In this document: one piece after another, positions 14,635-49,391 of the stretch
Layout: every line of letters starts with the position of its first letter
Numbering within the stretch: the stretch's first letter is position 1
Assembly (NCBI GenBank): GCA_027592925.1
Contig: JAQCJO010000001.1
Location: forward strand, 1-64,000
Reading direction: 5' to 3'
From: Actinomycetota bacterium
GTDB taxonomy: Bacteria; Actinomycetota; Acidimicrobiia; Acidimicrobiales; Ilumatobacteraceae
Length of the DNA stretch: 64,000 bases
Notes under the pieces: model-generated
Database searches by the model: none
Seen by the model: the letters and a program-made list of their open reading frames with translations, nothing else
What the model was told of the DNA's origin: nothing
Program-made: the position numbers and the translations under genes

Positions 14635-14946
14635 TTAGAGACCGAAACGAGCGCGCATGTGTTGGTCGTCGATGACGAGCGCAAGATGTGAGCCCGATGT
14701 ACGAGCACGAGCAACTGCACCCAAGATGACCCCAACTCCTGTGTCGTCGAGCGCAGTTACTTGACACAAGTCAATTGCAATGTCGTGTCCTGCATGGTCA
14801 TCGACAAATTTGGTGAGCATGTCGGAGCATTCTGGAACTGTTGCCAAGTCAATTTCACCCGCAAAGATAAGTACTGATTGTGAGCCATCATGAATAATTG
14901 ATGACGACAATTGCATATTGGTAACGCTACCCAACATCTTGCACAT
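14635..14946 (-). CDS. STAS-domain protein (anti-sigma factor antagonist-like)
   Basis: SVLIFAGEIDLATVPEC...IDLCQVTALDDTGVGVILGAVARA. Confidence 0.85.
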   Translation of the reverse strand: MCKMLGSVTNMQLSSSIIHDGSQSVLIFAGEIDLATVPECSDMLTKFVDDHAGHDIAIDLCQVTALDDTGVGVILGAVARARTSGSHLALVIDDQHMRARFGL

Positions 14947-15304
14947 GCATGGTGACAGACGCCGACAAAGTCAGTTGCGGAACGATGTGCTTGATCAACC
15001 ACAGGTTGATCAAGCGCGGATATTGCACCTCGACAGTGATGAGTTGCTCATCACGAACAATCTTGAGATGCAACGGTCGCAACCCGACTTCGTCTTCGAC
15101 TGCTTGTTGCACCACATCGGGAGAGTCTGGCGAAATTGACGCAGCACGCGCACCAGCACTTGCCGCGAGCCATACAGCCATTTGATCGCGAACAACTAGA
15201 CCAACGTTGAGAATGATGAGCAAAAGCCCGATGATCAGCGGCATGACAAGCGCGAGTTCAACCGTTGCTTGACCCGAGTCGGGTTCGCTCCGGCGGGCGC
15301 CCAT
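14927..15304 (-). CDS. TadE-like minor pseudopilin
   Basis: SGQATVELALVMPLIIGLLLIILNVGL type III prepilin-like N-terminus; in Tad operon. Confidence 0.85.
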   Translation of the reverse strand: MGARRSEPDSGQATVELALVMPLIIGLLLIILNVGLVVRDQMAVWLAASAGARAASISPDSPDVVQQAVEDEVGLRPLHLKIVRDEQLITVEVQYPRLINLWLIKHIVPQLTLSASVTMHVQDVG

Positions 15305-15312
15305 GTCAGTGA

Positions 15313-15561
15313 CTACGGCTGGACTGCGTCGGCACGACCCAAGATGTTTCCGATCACGCTGTCGAAGAGTTCGCCGATACGCCCCGCACCGCCACCATCG
15401 GTAGCCCATGCCACTACTAAAAGCGCGATGATTGCTGCACCGAGAAGCACGAGCGCGTATTCGGTTGTTGCTTGACCAGCGTCGTGCAACTCGTTTTGTT
15501 TTGTGTACACCGAGCGAACACGATGCAGTACATGCATGAAATAGACGTAGATATGATTCAT
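15313..15561 (-). CDS. Flp/DUF4244-like pilin
   Basis: DAGQATTEYALVLLGAAIIALLVVAWA G/xxxxE processing motif plus hydrophobic helix; in Tad operon. Confidence 0.75.
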   Translation of the reverse strand: MNHIYVYFMHVLHRVRSVYTKQNELHDAGQATTEYALVLLGAAIIALLVVAWATDGGGAGRIGELFDSVIGNILGRADAVQP

Positions 15562-15574
15562 AATCCTTCTTTCA

Positions 15575-16102
15575 TTAATGATTGAGATGAACAAGTGCGG
15601 TTGCGATCATCGGCACAACACCGAGCATCACAAACGAGGGAAGGATGCAGCACACAAGCGGAAACGTGAGTCGCACAGGAAGTCTGCGGATGTCTGCATC
15701 GAGTTGGCGCCTGCGTTGCATGCGCGATTCATTGGAAAGACGATCGAGTGTGTTGGCTATCGACTGTCCATCTCTGTCGGCCGAGAGCAATGCGTCGACC
15801 AGCGCAAATGCAGGGCTACCAATGAGTTGTCGCAAGGATGCAACACAGTCACTCAACCGATTGCCACGCAACAACTGTTGGGATACATCTGCAACAATCT
15901 CACGCAACGGTGGCTCGAGCCATGTGGGTGCCGCGATCAGTGACTGAGCAGGTGTGCTGCCAGAAAACATCAACAACACAACGGCATCAATGAATTCTGG
16001 AAGCTGGCGTGCAAGTTGGGCAGGCAGCAGGTTGCGATTGCGTCGCCTAAACAACCCGATTGCTATTGCCCCAACAACCAAGACCATGAAACTGAATGTC
16101 AT
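15575..16102 (-). CDS. TadC-like type II secretion F-domain membrane protein
   Basis: Position after TadB; RQLPEFIDAVVLLMFSG...LDRLSNESRMQRRRQLDADIRRLPVRLTFPLVCCILPSFVMLGVVPM. Confidence 0.82.
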   Translation of the reverse strand: MTFSFMVLVVGAIAIGLFRRRNRNLLPAQLARQLPEFIDAVVLLMFSGSTPAQSLIAAPTWLEPPLREIVADVSQQLLRGNRLSDCVASLRQLIGSPAFALVDALLSADRDGQSIANTLDRLSNESRMQRRRQLDADIRRLPVRLTFPLVCCILPSFVMLGVVPMIATALVHLNH

Positions 16103-16839
16103 ACAGAAATGTTGTCGACTACATGCGACATCCACTTGCGACCAGAAATGTTGAGCATGATTCCAGTAGCAACACAACACATGCCAACCGGGGTACTGAG
16201 CAGAAACATTCGTGCAATAGGGTCAGTGATTGTGATCCATGCAAAAACCGCGATGGGCAACCACGTGAGCACTTTGGTGGACAATTGCGCCTGAGCGGCC
16301 TGCACATCTCGGTCGAGCATGAGGCCCTGTTGCTCGCGTAACACCGATGCGCTGTGCTCGAGAGCAGGTGCCACTCCCGTACCGCCCGCACTTGCAACCG
16401 CCAAGGTGCGACTTGCAAAACGAATCTCGGGTGTCCACGTAGGCAACGCACACTCTGCGATTGCATCGGCAAGCACAACGCCACGCAAACATTGTTGAGC
16501 AACGGGTTGACTCCAATGGTTGTCATCTGATTGTTGATCGCTGCATTGCACAAATGACGATGCGAGCGAAAACCCTGAACGCACATCGCGAGCAATCGCG
16601 TCGAGGAAATCGGTAATGGCCAGTGGGGTTTGCAGAACTGGTGTCGTGGTTGATGTTGTGGGTGGTGTTATTGGTGATGTTATAGCTGTGGCTTTGTGCG
16701 AAGTTGTACCGAGCCGTACACGTAACCACCGGCGCGACCAATGCTTGGTGAGAGGCGGTGCAATAAGCAACGTGCATGCTCCAGCAACCGAAAGTGTGCC
16801 GATTATCGACACCGCAACATTAAGAACCACAGCGCTCAT
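16099..16839 (-). CDS. TadB-like type II secretion F-domain membrane protein
   Basis: Operon position, membrane segments, DFLDAIARDVRSGFSLASSF, VASAGGTGVAPALEHSASVLREQQ. Confidence 0.8.
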   Translation of the reverse strand: MSAVVLNVAVSIIGTLSVAGACTLLIAPPLTKHWSRRWLRVRLGTTSHKATAITSPITPPTTSTTTPVLQTPLAITDFLDAIARDVRSGFSLASSFVQCSDQQSDDNHWSQPVAQQCLRGVVLADAIAECALPTWTPEIRFASRTLAVASAGGTGVAPALEHSASVLREQQGLMLDRDVQAAQAQLSTKVLTWLPIAVFAWITITDPIARMFLLSTPVGMCCVATGIMLNISGRKWMSHVVDNISV

Positions 16840-17987
16840 GAGCGCCCGCGAGTGAGTTGACCAATGCGTAGTTCGCTGTGCACGCCACTACAGATGTCTT
16901 GGCGGAGTAGTGGACGACATGGAGAACCAGGTGTTGTCGACACTTCGCTGATCTCGATCACTGACCGCGAACCATCTGCGTGGCGACCGACGGAAACAAC
17001 AACGTCGATCGCCGCACAAATGTGTTGAGCAATGGCTTCTCGCGGCCATTGCCCGCAGTGCTGCAACATCAACGACTCAAGTCGCAGCAGTGCATCGTCG
17101 GCAGAGTTGGCGTGGCAGGTGGCAAATGATCCGTGGTGACCCGTGTTCATTGCGGCCAACATGTCGACAACTTCACTACCACGCACTTCGCCCACCACAA
17201 ATCTGTCTGGTCGCATGCGCAATGCTGTGCGCAAGAGTTCAGAAATCGAGATGCCAGCAACACCTTCTGCAGTAGGTGGTCGTGCCTCGAGTCGCACAAC
17301 GTGACTTGCCTGCAACTGCAACTCGGCTGTGTCTTCAACGGTGATGACGCGCTCATGTGCAGGAATATGTGCGCATAACGCATTGAGCAATGTTGTCTTG
17401 CCAGTAGAGGCCGCGCCGGTGACAAGCACGTTGCAATGACGGTGCACGAGTTGAGTGAGCAATGCAACGGTTGCGTCGCCACCAAAATCGTCGAGCGAAA
17501 TAGGTCGCACAGAAAATCGGCGAATAGAAAGACATGATCCGTCAACTGCAATTGGCGCAATGACAGCACACACCCGAGAGCCATCGGCGAGCCGCGCATC
17601 GACAATGGGCGAAGACCTGTCGAGCCGTTTGCCAAGTGGCAACAAAATCCGTTCGATGATTGCGTCGACCTCGCCAACAGGCAGGGTGTCAACCAAATGC
17701 ACTCCAGTTGAATCTTCTATATATACGTCTGTTCCGGCGTTGACCATGACTTCACGCACATCGGCGCGAGCCAAATAGTGATCGAGTGCGCCAAGGCCAG
17801 AGATGCCCGAAACGGCTCGCGATGCCACTGCATGTTGGGTGGTCTGCGACATGAGCGGTGCAATACTGCGCAAATGAATGTGTGCGGCAGTAAGCAAGTC
17901 GCCGCGCTCGTTGCGCAAGTGTTGTTGCAGGGTGTCCACAAGTGCACGTGTGTGAGTGTCGAGCGGAAGATCAAATGCAGTGGTCAT
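16836..17987 (-). CDS. CpaF/TadA family pilus assembly ATPase
   Basis: VTGAASTGKTTLLNALCAHIP Walker A, ERVITVEDTAELQL, RPDRFVVGEVRGSEVVDMLAAMNTGHHGSFATCHAN. Confidence 0.95.
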   Translation of the reverse strand: MTTAFDLPLDTHTRALVDTLQQHLRNERGDLLTAAHIHLRSIAPLMSQTTQHAVASRAVSGISGLGALDHYLARADVREVMVNAGTDVYIEDSTGVHLVDTLPVGEVDAIIERILLPLGKRLDRSSPIVDARLADGSRVCAVIAPIAVDGSCLSIRRFSVRPISLDDFGGDATVALLTQLVHRHCNVLVTGAASTGKTTLLNALCAHIPAHERVITVEDTAELQLQASHVVRLEARPPTAEGVAGISISELLRTALRMRPDRFVVGEVRGSEVVDMLAAMNTGHHGSFATCHANSADDALLRLESLMLQHCGQWPREAIAQHICAAIDVVVSVGRHADGSRSVIEISEVSTTPGSPCRPLLRQDICSGVHSELRIGQLTRGRS

Positions 17988-18008
17988 GATTGCAAGATGT
18001 TGCAGTGC

Positions 18009-18662
18009 TCAGCACACATCGACAAGGTGTTTGGCAAGCAGAGTTGGCACTCGGCCTGCGAGTAGTCCTGCATCAACCGCACGAGCAATTGCAGGATCAA
18101 ACGGAATCTCGGCAAGCACCGGTGCACCGACAACAGATTCGACATCGTGCACACCAAGCGCACGACCAGGCTCGGTAATGACGATGACACCGTGTGGCGG
18201 GGTGGTGAGCAACGATGCACGGCGCAGAGCCAAGTAACACGGACGAATAATTAAGAGTGAACGAGTGGCGTGTAGGAGGATTGGAATTGTTGCAAGGCCA
18301 CTACCAGCGTCGATAACAGTTGGCATGGGTGACTGGGCAACGGCAAGTGCGAGATCACGCAAACGATCTGGGTTCACTAGTGACGGCACGATGATGTTGC
18401 GACCGCGAGGAATTACTCCGAGGTGCGCAGTGACTGGCAACATCAAATTGTTGAGTGCATCAGCACCTGGATGATCAGTTGCGCTTAACCATTCGGAAAT
18501 ACCCTCTGACGCCGGCTCTGACATGCCGAGAGCGGAGGGAGTATCGCCCGACATGTCGATGAGTCGCGCACCAACATCGAGACGCTGGGCCAAAACCAAT
18601 GCCAATGCTGCGGCAACAACCGTGGTGCCACTTCCACCTTTGACGGACCAACAAACAATCAT
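18009..18662 (-). CDS. MinD/CpaE-like ATPase (TadZ-like)
   Basis: MIVCWSVKGGSGTTVVAAALAL deviant Walker A; upstream of tadA. Confidence 0.82.
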   Translation of the reverse strand: MIVCWSVKGGSGTTVVAAALALVLAQRLDVGARLIDMSGDTPSALGMSEPASEGISEWLSATDHPGADALNNLMLPVTAHLGVIPRGRNIIVPSLVNPDRLRDLALAVAQSPMPTVIDAGSGLATIPILLHATRSLLIIRPCYLALRRASLLTTPPHGVIVITEPGRALGVHDVESVVGAPVLAEIPFDPAIARAVDAGLLAGRVPTLLAKHLVDVC

Positions 18663-18781
18663 CACAACCTCCAACTGTGCGCTCGGCGCGAATTCACCGA
18701 ATCGGTTTAGACACGATGTGTACGCGAGATGTCGCCAAGTGACGTTGATTTAGTTACAAGGGTTTAGATACGGTGATGAAC

Positions 18782-18877
18782 GGAGGTGTCCGGGTGCCTG
18801 GTGGACTCCGCCGCCTTCAAAGCGGTTGGGACGAGTAATCCTCGTTCGGCGGGTTCGATTCCCGTCCGCCTCCGCCA
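18782..18877 (+). tRNA. selC: tRNA-Sec (anticodon TCA), CCA encoded
   Basis: GGAGGTGTCCGGGTGCCTGGTGGACTCCGCCGCCTTCAAAGCGGTTGGGACGAGTAATCCTCGTTCGGCGGGTTCGATTCCCGTCCGCCTCCGCCA: 96 nt, TCA in loop CTTCAAA, long variable arm. Confidence 0.93.
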
Positions 18878-20705: not shown

Positions 20706-21644
20706 TTAGACCGAGAGAAGGTCGCGCGCGCCGGTGTCGCTCGACGGGTGGCGCAACTTGCTCATTGCACGTGCCTCAATCTGGCGAATGCGCTCGCGAG
20801 TGAGGTTGAATGCTTCGCCAACTTCTTCGAGTGTGCGTGGCTCACCACGATCGAGACCGAAGCGCAGTGCAAGAATTTCGCGCTCGCGCTGATCGAGAGG
20901 TGCAAGCAGTCGTGAGATTTCTTCTGGCAATAATGCGGTTGCTGCAACTTCAAACGGAGACTCTGCTGCGCGGTCTTCTACGACGTCGCCCAGTTCGGCA
21001 TCGCCATCTTCACGCAATGGCTCTGACAACGAAAGTGGCTCGGCAGCAAAACGCAATGCCTCGGTCACTTTGTCTTCTGGCATCTCGACTTCTTTTGACA
21101 ACTCGGCAAGAGTTGCAGGACGACCAAACTTGAGCTCGAGGCGCGAGCGTGCTTTTTGCAAACGTGCAAGCGTGTCGCCGGCATGAACCGGGAGGCGAAT
21201 GGTGCGACCCGTGTTTGCGATGCCGCGAGTAATGGCCTGACGGATCCACCACGTTGCATATGTAGAGAATTTGAAACCCTTGCGCCAGTCAAACTTTTCG
21301 ACGGCGTGCATCAAACCCAAGTTGCCTTCTTGAATCAAGTCAAGAAGCGGCAAACCCGATGCCTGATATTTTTTGGCGATCGAAACAACGAGACGCAAGT
21401 TGGATTGCACAAATTGACGCTCGGCTTTTGTGCCATCGCGCTGATCTTTGCGCAACTCGCGGCGACGGTTTGGAGTGAGCGTCTTGTCGCTCTTGTCGAG
21501 CTCGGCTGTTGCTTCTTTGCCTGTCTCAATGGCCTTGGCCAAACGAACTTCGTCGTCTTTTGTGAGGAGGGCGTACTGACCGATGTCGGTGAGATAGAGA
21601 CGGACTAGGTCTTCTTCGTCACGATCGATACGGTCTTTGGCCAC
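20706..21644 (-). CDS. RNA polymerase sigma-70 family primary-type sigma factor
   Basis: DLVRLYLTDIGQYALLTKDDEVRLAKAIE, GLMHAVEKFDWRKGFKFSTYATWWIRQAITR, REREILALRFGL...RERIRQIEARAMSKLR; GTG start with AAGGAGAT SD. Confidence 0.93.
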   Translation of the reverse strand: MAKDRIDRDEEDLVRLYLTDIGQYALLTKDDEVRLAKAIETGKEATAELDKSDKTLTPNRRRELRKDQRDGTKAERQFVQSNLRLVVSIAKKYQASGLPLLDLIQEGNLGLMHAVEKFDWRKGFKFSTYATWWIRQAITRGIANTGRTIRLPVHAGDTLARLQKARSRLELKFGRPATLAELSKEVEMPEDKVTEALRFAAEPLSLSEPLREDGDAELGDVVEDRAAESPFEVAATALLPEEISRLLAPLDQREREILALRFGLDRGEPRTLEEVGEAFNLTRERIRQIEARAMSKLRHPSSDTGARDLLSV

Positions 21645-21801
21645 TTCATCTCCTTGATTCCTCGTTAGCGGGAACGGGGTAACGATACCGACAGGGTCAA
21701 GCCCCACCACCTGAAAAACCGCAAAACTCTTACCTGATTTGGTGTTTTTCATGTGACCCGTTTGGCATTGAAGTTTTACGGAAATGGCGTACTATCGGGG
21801 T

Positions 21802-47359: not shown

Positions 47360-47602
47360 GTGGTTCAACTGCGAATGTTTGCCTCGGCCCGTGAAGCGGC
47401 CGGAACTGCTCGTGACACAATGCCTGGCGACACGGTCGATCAGGTATTGGCTGGTGCCGTTGCCCGATTTGGAGCAGACTTTGCAACAGTGTTGCAATCA
47501 TGTCGAGTGTGGGTCAACGGCGAGTCGGTCGAAGGTACCTCGGCAGTTACAGACACTGACGAAGTTGCGATTCTTCCACCAGTGTCGGGGGGCGACAAGT
47601 GA
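47360..47602 (+). CDS. MoaD/ThiS-family beta-grasp protein
   Basis: VVQLRMFASAREAAGTARDTMPGDTVDQVL...DTDEVAILPPVSGGDK. Confidence 0.85.
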   Translation: MVQLRMFASAREAAGTARDTMPGDTVDQVLAGAVARFGADFATVLQSCRVWVNGESVEGTSAVTDTDEVAILPPVSGGDK

Positions 47603-48084
47603 CAAATATGTATGAAGAACTTTCTCTTGATGAGTTGCGCACCAAGCGTGCTGAGATGCAGCACCAAGAAGATGCGGTGTCATTTGTGCGCCGACTAGCT
47701 CAGGGACGTCTAGACATTGCTCGCGACGAATTACGCCGACGCATTGACAACGAACCGTTGCTCGATGTGGCCACAAATCTTGCTGGTGTGTTTGGTCAAG
47801 AACATGGCGGCGGCTCGGCTCGTCCGCCACGCGAAACTATTATCTCTGGCGATCACCCACTCGTGCTCGAACTTGAGCACTTGTGCGAAGACCTTGGCTT
47901 CGGTTCGATTCGCACGCTGGATGAAACAAGCCTGCGAACCGCAATTGATGAACTTGCTAAGTTTGAATTGTTGCGCTCAAGTGAACGGCGTGCATTATTT
48001 GACACGATAGACGCTCTCACTACGGCTCTCGTGCAGCGCTACAAAAGTGGTGGCGCAAATGTTGATGCGCTTCTGAACGACTAG
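47599..48084 (+). CDS. RsiG-like anti-sigma factor with c-di-GMP-binding motif
   Basis: ELRTKRAEMQHQEDAVSFVRRLAQGRLDIARDELRRR contains exact E(X)3S(X)2R(X)3Q(X)3D. Confidence 0.78.
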   Translation: MTNMYEELSLDELRTKRAEMQHQEDAVSFVRRLAQGRLDIARDELRRRIDNEPLLDVATNLAGVFGQEHGGGSARPPRETIISGDHPLVLELEHLCEDLGFGSIRTLDETSLRTAIDELAKFELLRSSERRALFDTIDALTTALVQRYKSGGANVDALLND

Positions 48085-48176: not shown

Positions 48177-49391
48177 GTGATGCAACGTGTCGCTGTGCTG
48201 TCTTTGCACACCTCGCCGCTCGCCCAACCGGGCGTAGGTGATGGTGGTGGCATGAATGTGTATGTGCGCGAACTCGTTTCTGCACTTGCTAGCAGCGGAG
48301 TCGATTGCACTACATATACACGTGCTTGGAAATCTGGATTGCCCGATGTAGTCGAGGTCGAACCAAATCACCGCGTCGTGCATGTGCGCGCAGGCGATGT
48401 TGATTTGCCGAAAGAAGAAATGCTCAGCGTGGTTGATGAATTTACTGACTCGGTTGCTTGGCATCTTCAGCGAAATGGTGGTGCCGACTTGGTGCACGCC
48501 AATTATTGGTTGTCTGGTGTGGTCGGACACCGCTTGAAGCACGAATTGAATTTGCCTCTCGTCTCCACATTCCATACGTTTGCTCGTGTCAAAGGGCTCG
48601 GTGGCGACATTGAGTCTCCAGTGCGCGAAAAGTCGGAGTTGGAAGTGATCGGTTGCAGCGATGCAATTTGTGTCAGTTGTCCTGAAGAGCGATCACAGTT
48701 TGAGTCGTTATATGGCAGTGCTCCAGGAACGATTGAAGTAGTCGCCCCAGGTGTTGAGCGAGCATTTTTCTCTCCAGGGGATCGTCGCGGTGCGCGACAT
48801 GCTCTCGGACTTGGCAGTGGACCAATTTTGTTGTTTGTTGGTCGCATTCAGCCACTGAAGGGTCTTGATATTGCAGTGCAAACACTTGCACAACTTGGTC
48901 TTAATGATGCACAACTTGTTGTAGTTGGTGGCGCAAGTGGTGCTGACGGTGTAGCCGAACTTGAACGTGTGCAACGCATCATCGTCGAAAACAAATTGGA
49001 AGGGCGAGTGCATTTCTTTGATCCACAGCCGCACCACCTGTTGTCTACTTTCTATCGTGCAGCCGATGTGGTGTTGGTGCCATCGCGCAGCGAGAGTTTT
49101 GGATTGGTTGCGCTTGAAGCAGGTGCATGTGGAACCCCCGTCGTCGCAACTGGCGTAGGTGGGTTGCTTAGCCTGATCGATCATGGTCGCACCGGCTTTT
49201 TAGTACCCGGCCGCAATGTTGACGACTTTGCCAAGTTCACTGCACAACTGCTCGATGATTCGTTGCTCTCGTTGACCATGGGCACCGCCGCCGCAGAGCG
49301 TGCAAAAGCGTATTCGTGGAAGTCTGCGGCACATACCGTGCGCGATGTGTATGCACAACTGCTCGAGCGTGAATTGGTGGCTTGCAAGTAG
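48177..49391 (+). CDS. mshA: D-inositol-3-phosphate glycosyltransferase
   Basis: HTSPLAQPGVGDGGGMNVYVRELV, LFVGRIQPLKGLDIAVQTLAQL, PSRSESFGLVALEAGACGTPVVATGVGGL. Confidence 0.93.
   Translation: MMQRVAVLSLHTSPLAQPGVGDGGGMNVYVRELVSALASSGVDCTTYTRAWKSGLPDVVEVEPNHRVVHVRAGDVDLPKEEMLSVVDEFTDSVAWHLQRNGGADLVHANYWLSGVVGHRLKHELNLPLVSTFHTFARVKGLGGDIESPVREKSELEVIGCSDAICVSCPEERSQFESLYGSAPGTIEVVAPGVERAFFSPGDRRGARHALGLGSGPILLFVGRIQPLKGLDIAVQTLAQLGLNDAQLVVVGGASGADGVAELERVQRIIVENKLEGRVHFFDPQPHHLLSTFYRAADVVLVPSRSESFGLVALEAGACGTPVVATGVGGLLSLIDHGRTGFLVPGRNVDDFAKFTAQLLDDSLLSLTMGTAAAERAKAYSWKSAAHTVRDVYAQLLERELVACK

Follow-up and report, generated by a model that had tools for sequence, protein, structure and literature searches.

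Does a short reading frame with an exact c-di-GMP signature, found in a 64,000-nucleotide stretch (hereafter, the window) of an Ilumatobacteraceae genome, encode an anti-sigma factor of the RsiG family, and if so, which sigma factor would it hold back? The original prediction, made from the letters of the window, proposed a single-motif, homodimeric RsiG-like protein gating a sigma factor through c-di-GMP, possibly for motility or pili. Unlike Streptomyces, the host is a small-genome actinobacterium (97 contigs totalling 1.66 Mb, with 98% completeness) whose nearest named relatives are mostly freshwater MAGs of the Ilumatobacteraceae/Acidimicrobium type, and we know of no sporulation in it. 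The features discussed are collected in Table 1.

Table 1. Features of the rsiG region, the predicted partner sigma factor and other loci discussed (window positions unless a contig is named).
Feature	Position	Strand	Basis
MoaD/ThiS-family gene directly upstream of rsiG	47360..47602	+	ThiS PF02597
rsiG, twin-motif RsiG-family anti-sigma factor, 161 aa	47599..48084	+	PF22802 and phmmer
c-di-GMP motif 1 (helix alpha-1 equivalent), EDAVSFVRRLAQGRLD, aa 24-39	47668..47715	+	canonical E-S-R-Q-D
c-di-GMP motif 2 (helix alpha-5 equivalent), ELLRSSERRALFDTID, aa 123-138	47965..48012	+	E-S-R-F-D
MshA-like family-4 glycosyltransferase, downstream of rsiG	48177..49391	+	neighbourhood conservation
Primary-type sigma factor, 348 aa, sole sigma factor in the window	20706..21752	-	one Sigma70_r2 match; primary-like sequence
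Tad operon with CpaF-like ATPase	14927-18674	-	
Tad/Flp pilus operon, then STAS-domain protein	14635-18674	-	compact locus
WhiG-type sigma factor, 257 aa	G000:C60:14182-14841		TIGR02479 and structure match

The rsiG Gene and Its Two c-di-GMP Motifs

Judged by its sequence, the rsiG product is a true member of the RsiG family, an ordinary representative of a known kind. The Pfam RsiG profile (PF22802) gives it 68 bits (cut-off 27); the NCBIfam profiles contained no model matching it. The best match among solved structures (phmmer, E 6e-14) is Streptomyces venezuelae RsiG (6pfj/6pfv, deposited as AmfC), and the alignment of residues 8-159 with residues 25-175 of 6pfj_T is full-length. The gene is single-copy in the genome. 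Its GTG start codon shares bases with the stop of the moaD/thiS-like gene before it (GTGA junction), and the two are therefore probably co-translated; a MoaD/ThiS-family gene stands beside rsiG in all 22 of the 22 named relatives. The MshA-like glycosyltransferase is a marker of the rsiG neighbourhood kept in the order, for which we claim no functional link.

The 48-base segment of motif 1 encodes, as originally predicted, an exact fit to E(X)3S(X)2R(X)3Q(X)3D. That this would be the only copy in the protein proved incorrect, since a second copy carries E, S, R, and D in register in the alignment, with Phe at the Gln/His position. A scan of the window in all six frames (∼128,000 codons) for E...S..R...[QHF]...D gave only two hits, both within RsiG, and among 200,000 shuffled versions of the protein 0.07% contained one copy and none contained two; the motif is hence not a product of chance. 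In an alignment of 15 RsiG sequences (our own and 14 close relatives), ten of the ten motif positions are invariant, the Phe of motif 2 included.

The Phe of motif 2 most likely takes the role of Gln/His in stacking on guanine. Experiments on the stacking position have covered Q and H, with Phe not among them. Motif 2 carries His at its fourth position in 76 of 110 genomes of the order and Phe in 32; Gln and Leu occur there once each. A quick RsiG tree, built with the two stacking-residue columns left out, requires 13 His/Phe changes under parsimony, of which well-supported branches force at least six. What is new here, as the tree and alignments indicate, is that the second motif carries His or Phe, swapped repeatedly across the order; the main text of PMC8325347 states Q/H variation only for motif 1, in contrast to the H/F variation of motif 2 observed by us. 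It is conceivable, but in our estimation improbable, that the Phe variant has weakened or abolished c-di-GMP binding at the second half-site, and that RsiG restrains WhiG constitutively or under some other gate. PMC8325347 gives Q/H as the residue at this position, and the clade carries F without exception. Nevertheless, the E, S, R, and D of motif 2 are invariant in the clade, the order-wide Phe/His exchange leaves the other four positions mostly in place, which fits equivalent stacking, and both the c-di-GMP contacts of the sigma factor and the GGDEF-EAL enzymes described below are still present.

Motif 1 is itself variable in some RsiG proteins of the order, with Ala (L187, L192, L196, and L211) or Asp (L015, L026, L193, L205, L240, and L241) in place of the first Glu; three of the four with Ala also carry Asn at the end of motif 2.

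The Predicted WhiG Partner and the c-di-GMP Enzymes

The original prediction placed RsiG in a segment without a WhiG-type sigma factor and described the only one there as primary-type. Both statements are accurate for the window, which contains one Sigma70_r2 match with primary-like sequence; the genome, however, does encode a WhiG. Four Sigma70_r2 matches were found genome-wide, namely this WhiG, two RpoD-like sigma factors, and one truncated at a contig end. The WhiG is encoded on a different contig (C60) from rsiG, in the arrangement dprA-xer (tyrosine recombinase)-whiG-M23 peptidase. It passes the FliA/WhiG model TIGR02479 with 270.8 bits (cut-off 189.6); its best model is the WhiG equivalog NF004935, yet it stays under the cut-off of that model (285 vs. 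343). Its best structure match is S. venezuelae WhiG (6pfj, E 1e-68).

According to PMC8325347, K57, G61, and R62 are the S. venezuelae WhiG residues that touch c-di-GMP, and K41, G45, and R46 of the C60 protein align with them. These K-G-R contacts are conserved in all WhiG-type sigma factors sampled; FliA-like paralogues of the order read KFQ, RFQ, KLQ, or KRR at the same positions, and both RpoD-like sigma factors of the genome are without the contacts. The contacts are missing from the primary-type sigma factor of the window, which is not the partner that we predict for RsiG.

The original prediction was to fall if the genome held neither a WhiG/FliA-family sigma factor nor diguanylate cyclases, and it survives this check. 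The genome-level search returned, besides WhiG, two GGDEF proteins, both of GGDEF-EAL type and both with an EAL motif. One carries PAS domains and a GGDEF motif; the other (L001) carries an SGDEF motif and, on a crude hydropathy count, ∼10 putative membrane stretches. In membrane GGDEF-EAL architecture, L001 resembles the Streptomyces phosphodiesterase RmdB, a membrane-bound GGDEF-EAL protein that binds WhiG (PMC13232838), although RmdB has eight membrane stretches against the ten of our crude count. Because of this likeness to RmdB, L001 is a natural candidate for an RmdB-like, WhiG-binding role. S. venezuelae has ten c-di-GMP enzymes (PMC13232838) as against the two proteins here, our count being of GGDEF proteins only.

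Distribution of RsiG and WhiG in Acidimicrobiales

The occurrence of RsiG in Acidimicrobiales is not new, twin-motif RsiG having already been published in three of four species of the order (PNAS 2021; PMC8325347). The protein described here has the same architecture, comes from the same kind of organism, and is an additional member of that set. What is new is that the presence of RsiG and that of WhiG go hand in hand over the 198 genomes of the order that we surveyed, RsiG being detected in 126 of them. Among genomes at least 90% complete, 98 have both proteins, 51 have neither, five have RsiG only, and none has WhiG only, where the WhiG cut-off (E-value exponent of at least 72) was set post hoc at a score gap, kinship is addressed by the family listing alone, and gene absences in draft genomes add noise. 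The "WhiG only" count could be two rather than zero, because the RsiG-negative genomes G108 and G192 carry a sigma factor just below the cut-off (∼235 bits) with K-G-R kept. Nine families include both pair-present and pair-absent genomes, and the two genes therefore seem to have been lost, or acquired, together on several occasions.

That RsiG targets a sigma factor other than WhiG in the source genome is very unlikely. The genome offers other sigma factors, two RpoD-like and one truncated, and rsiG and whiG lie on separate contigs; against this, the K-G-R contacts occur in WhiG alone among the sigma factors compared, and RsiG presence tracks WhiG presence over the order.

K-G-R WhiG-type sigma factors with RsiG undetected were seen in G108 and G192 (family f19), L160, and L161; either RsiG has diverged there or the sigma factor has lost its anti-sigma factor.

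The Predicted Switch and Known Systems

The explanation that best accounts for the whole, and that we hold to be very probable, is a monomeric twin-motif RsiG with a WhiG-type partner and a bound c-di-GMP dimer, responding to a signal set by the GGDEF-EAL proteins. The family membership, both motifs, the presence of partner and enzymes, the sigma contact residues, and the joint distribution of RsiG and WhiG are observed. From work on Streptomyces and Rubrobacter, we infer RsiG binding, sequestration, the monomer state, and the direction of control. Two antiparallel helices of RsiG would each provide one c-di-GMP half-site (E-S-R-Q-D and E-S-R-F-D), the Phe of the second stacking on guanine in place of Gln/His, and the half-sites would jointly bind a c-di-GMP dimer, which would help RsiG hold back WhiG. 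The c-di-GMP level would be set by the PAS-containing GGDEF-EAL protein and its membrane-bound counterpart. On homology, our confidence that RsiG would work as a c-di-GMP-dependent anti-WhiG factor is high, and the sequence supports the c-di-GMP-gated sigma switch of the original prediction; the pilus or motility role attached to it is unsupported.

The closest known system is that of Streptomyces, where twin-motif RsiG acts as a monomer (PMC8325347). It is alike in its two E-S-R-x-D half-sites per chain, full-length homology, and K-G-R WhiG partner, and unlike in having Gln in motif 2 where Phe is found here. Rubrobacter radiotolerans RsiG (7lq2, 7lq3, and 7lq4), which is of the single-motif kind invoked by the original prediction, is alike in motif 1 and in c-di-GMP logic, but it is a small single-motif homodimer whose WhiG serves type IV pili. 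A single-motif homodimer of this type is hardly credible here, for although exact canonical letters occur in motif 1 only, a second, in-register motif with conserved positions lies in the C-terminal helix region, the alignment with the monomeric twin-motif protein is full-length, and the Rubrobacter structures match mainly over the first motif region.

The c-di-GMP/sigma switch of sporulating Streptomyces would be complete in this genome of 1.66 Mb, and its few parts make an exhaustive study feasible. The joint distribution of RsiG and WhiG, together with the repeated His/Phe exchange, offers direct, inexpensive ways of testing what holds the c-di-GMP dimer in place. For a role of the switch beyond sporulation and type IV pili, one candidate target, a SpoIID-family gene, is offered below.

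Search for Targets of the Switch

The WhiG/FliA consensus promoter is not enriched in the source genome (119 matches vs. 143 for the reversed control), and across the order matches are scattered, with similar control counts. As no clear excess over the reversed pattern is seen, a genome-wide regulon cannot be drawn, and our confidence about the RsiG/WhiG regulon is low. At up to three mismatches, no WhiG-like promoter was found before rsiG, whiG, or either GGDEF gene. In other members of the order, some exact consensus matches precede genes that, by eye, look prepilin-like or flagellar-like.

A pilus role of the switch is unsupported. A search of the source genome for the N-methyl signature of type IV prepilins came back empty, in contrast to the pilus role of R. 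radiotolerans WhiG, and the sole secretion ATPase that turned up, a CpaF-like protein, belongs to the Tad operon in the window. This Tad/Flp operon encodes CpaE-like, CpaF, T2SSF/TadB-like, and TadE proteins and a small protein weakly matching DUF4244. As a WhiG target it was rejected, since in the window cpaE is not preceded by a WhiG-like promoter; among 19 relatives (those fetched with a cpaE match, some weak or partial), two have a three-mismatch site 141-148 bases before cpaE and the rest none. The PilB loci of larger relatives were likewise rejected, with three two-mismatch matches against one in the control. Several relatives have an ACACA(T/C) element ahead of cpaE. A selenocysteine tRNA (anticodon TCA; ARAGORN and Rfam) lies at 18782-18877 (+) of the window, which suggests selenoprotein synthesis in this small genome.

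Of the eight single-mismatch promoter sites in the genome, one falls in the intergenic region ahead of a SpoIID-family gene on contig C79, at a distance of 71 bases. Six congeneric species keep GCCGAT unchanged upstream of this gene, with TAAA or a close variant 15 bases ahead of it and a spacer that has diverged between them; five species of another genus have [TC]AAG...TGCCGATAA ahead of the orthologue. A site with at most two mismatches is present at 11 of 30 SpoIID-family loci and the reversed pattern at none, in a comparison of mutually related loci for a gene chosen after the promoter matches had been seen. A search of Rfam returned no match before the gene. Two features count against a WhiG promoter: small inverted repeats overlap the WhiG-like site, and just downstream of it lies a TAGACT box, common to genera without GCCGAT and likely an ordinary -10 element. 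Genera g137 and g142 are without the GCCGAT element. The SpoIID-family gene is, as a suggestive lead only, one candidate WhiG target. That WhiG drives it from TAAA-N15-GCCGAT in envelope remodelling, restrained by c-di-GMP through an RsiG with a Phe half-site, is a doubtful though not negligible reading. If true, the circuit of these small-genome freshwater Ilumatobacteraceae would need no more than a single RsiG, a single WhiG, and the two GGDEF-EAL proteins.

Genus g135 (L291-L294 and L296) has a strongly conserved inverted repeat, unmatched in Rfam, around TGCCGATAATCATCATGTCGGCACAACTACCC upstream of its SpoIID-family gene, a candidate operator, RNA element, or promoter.
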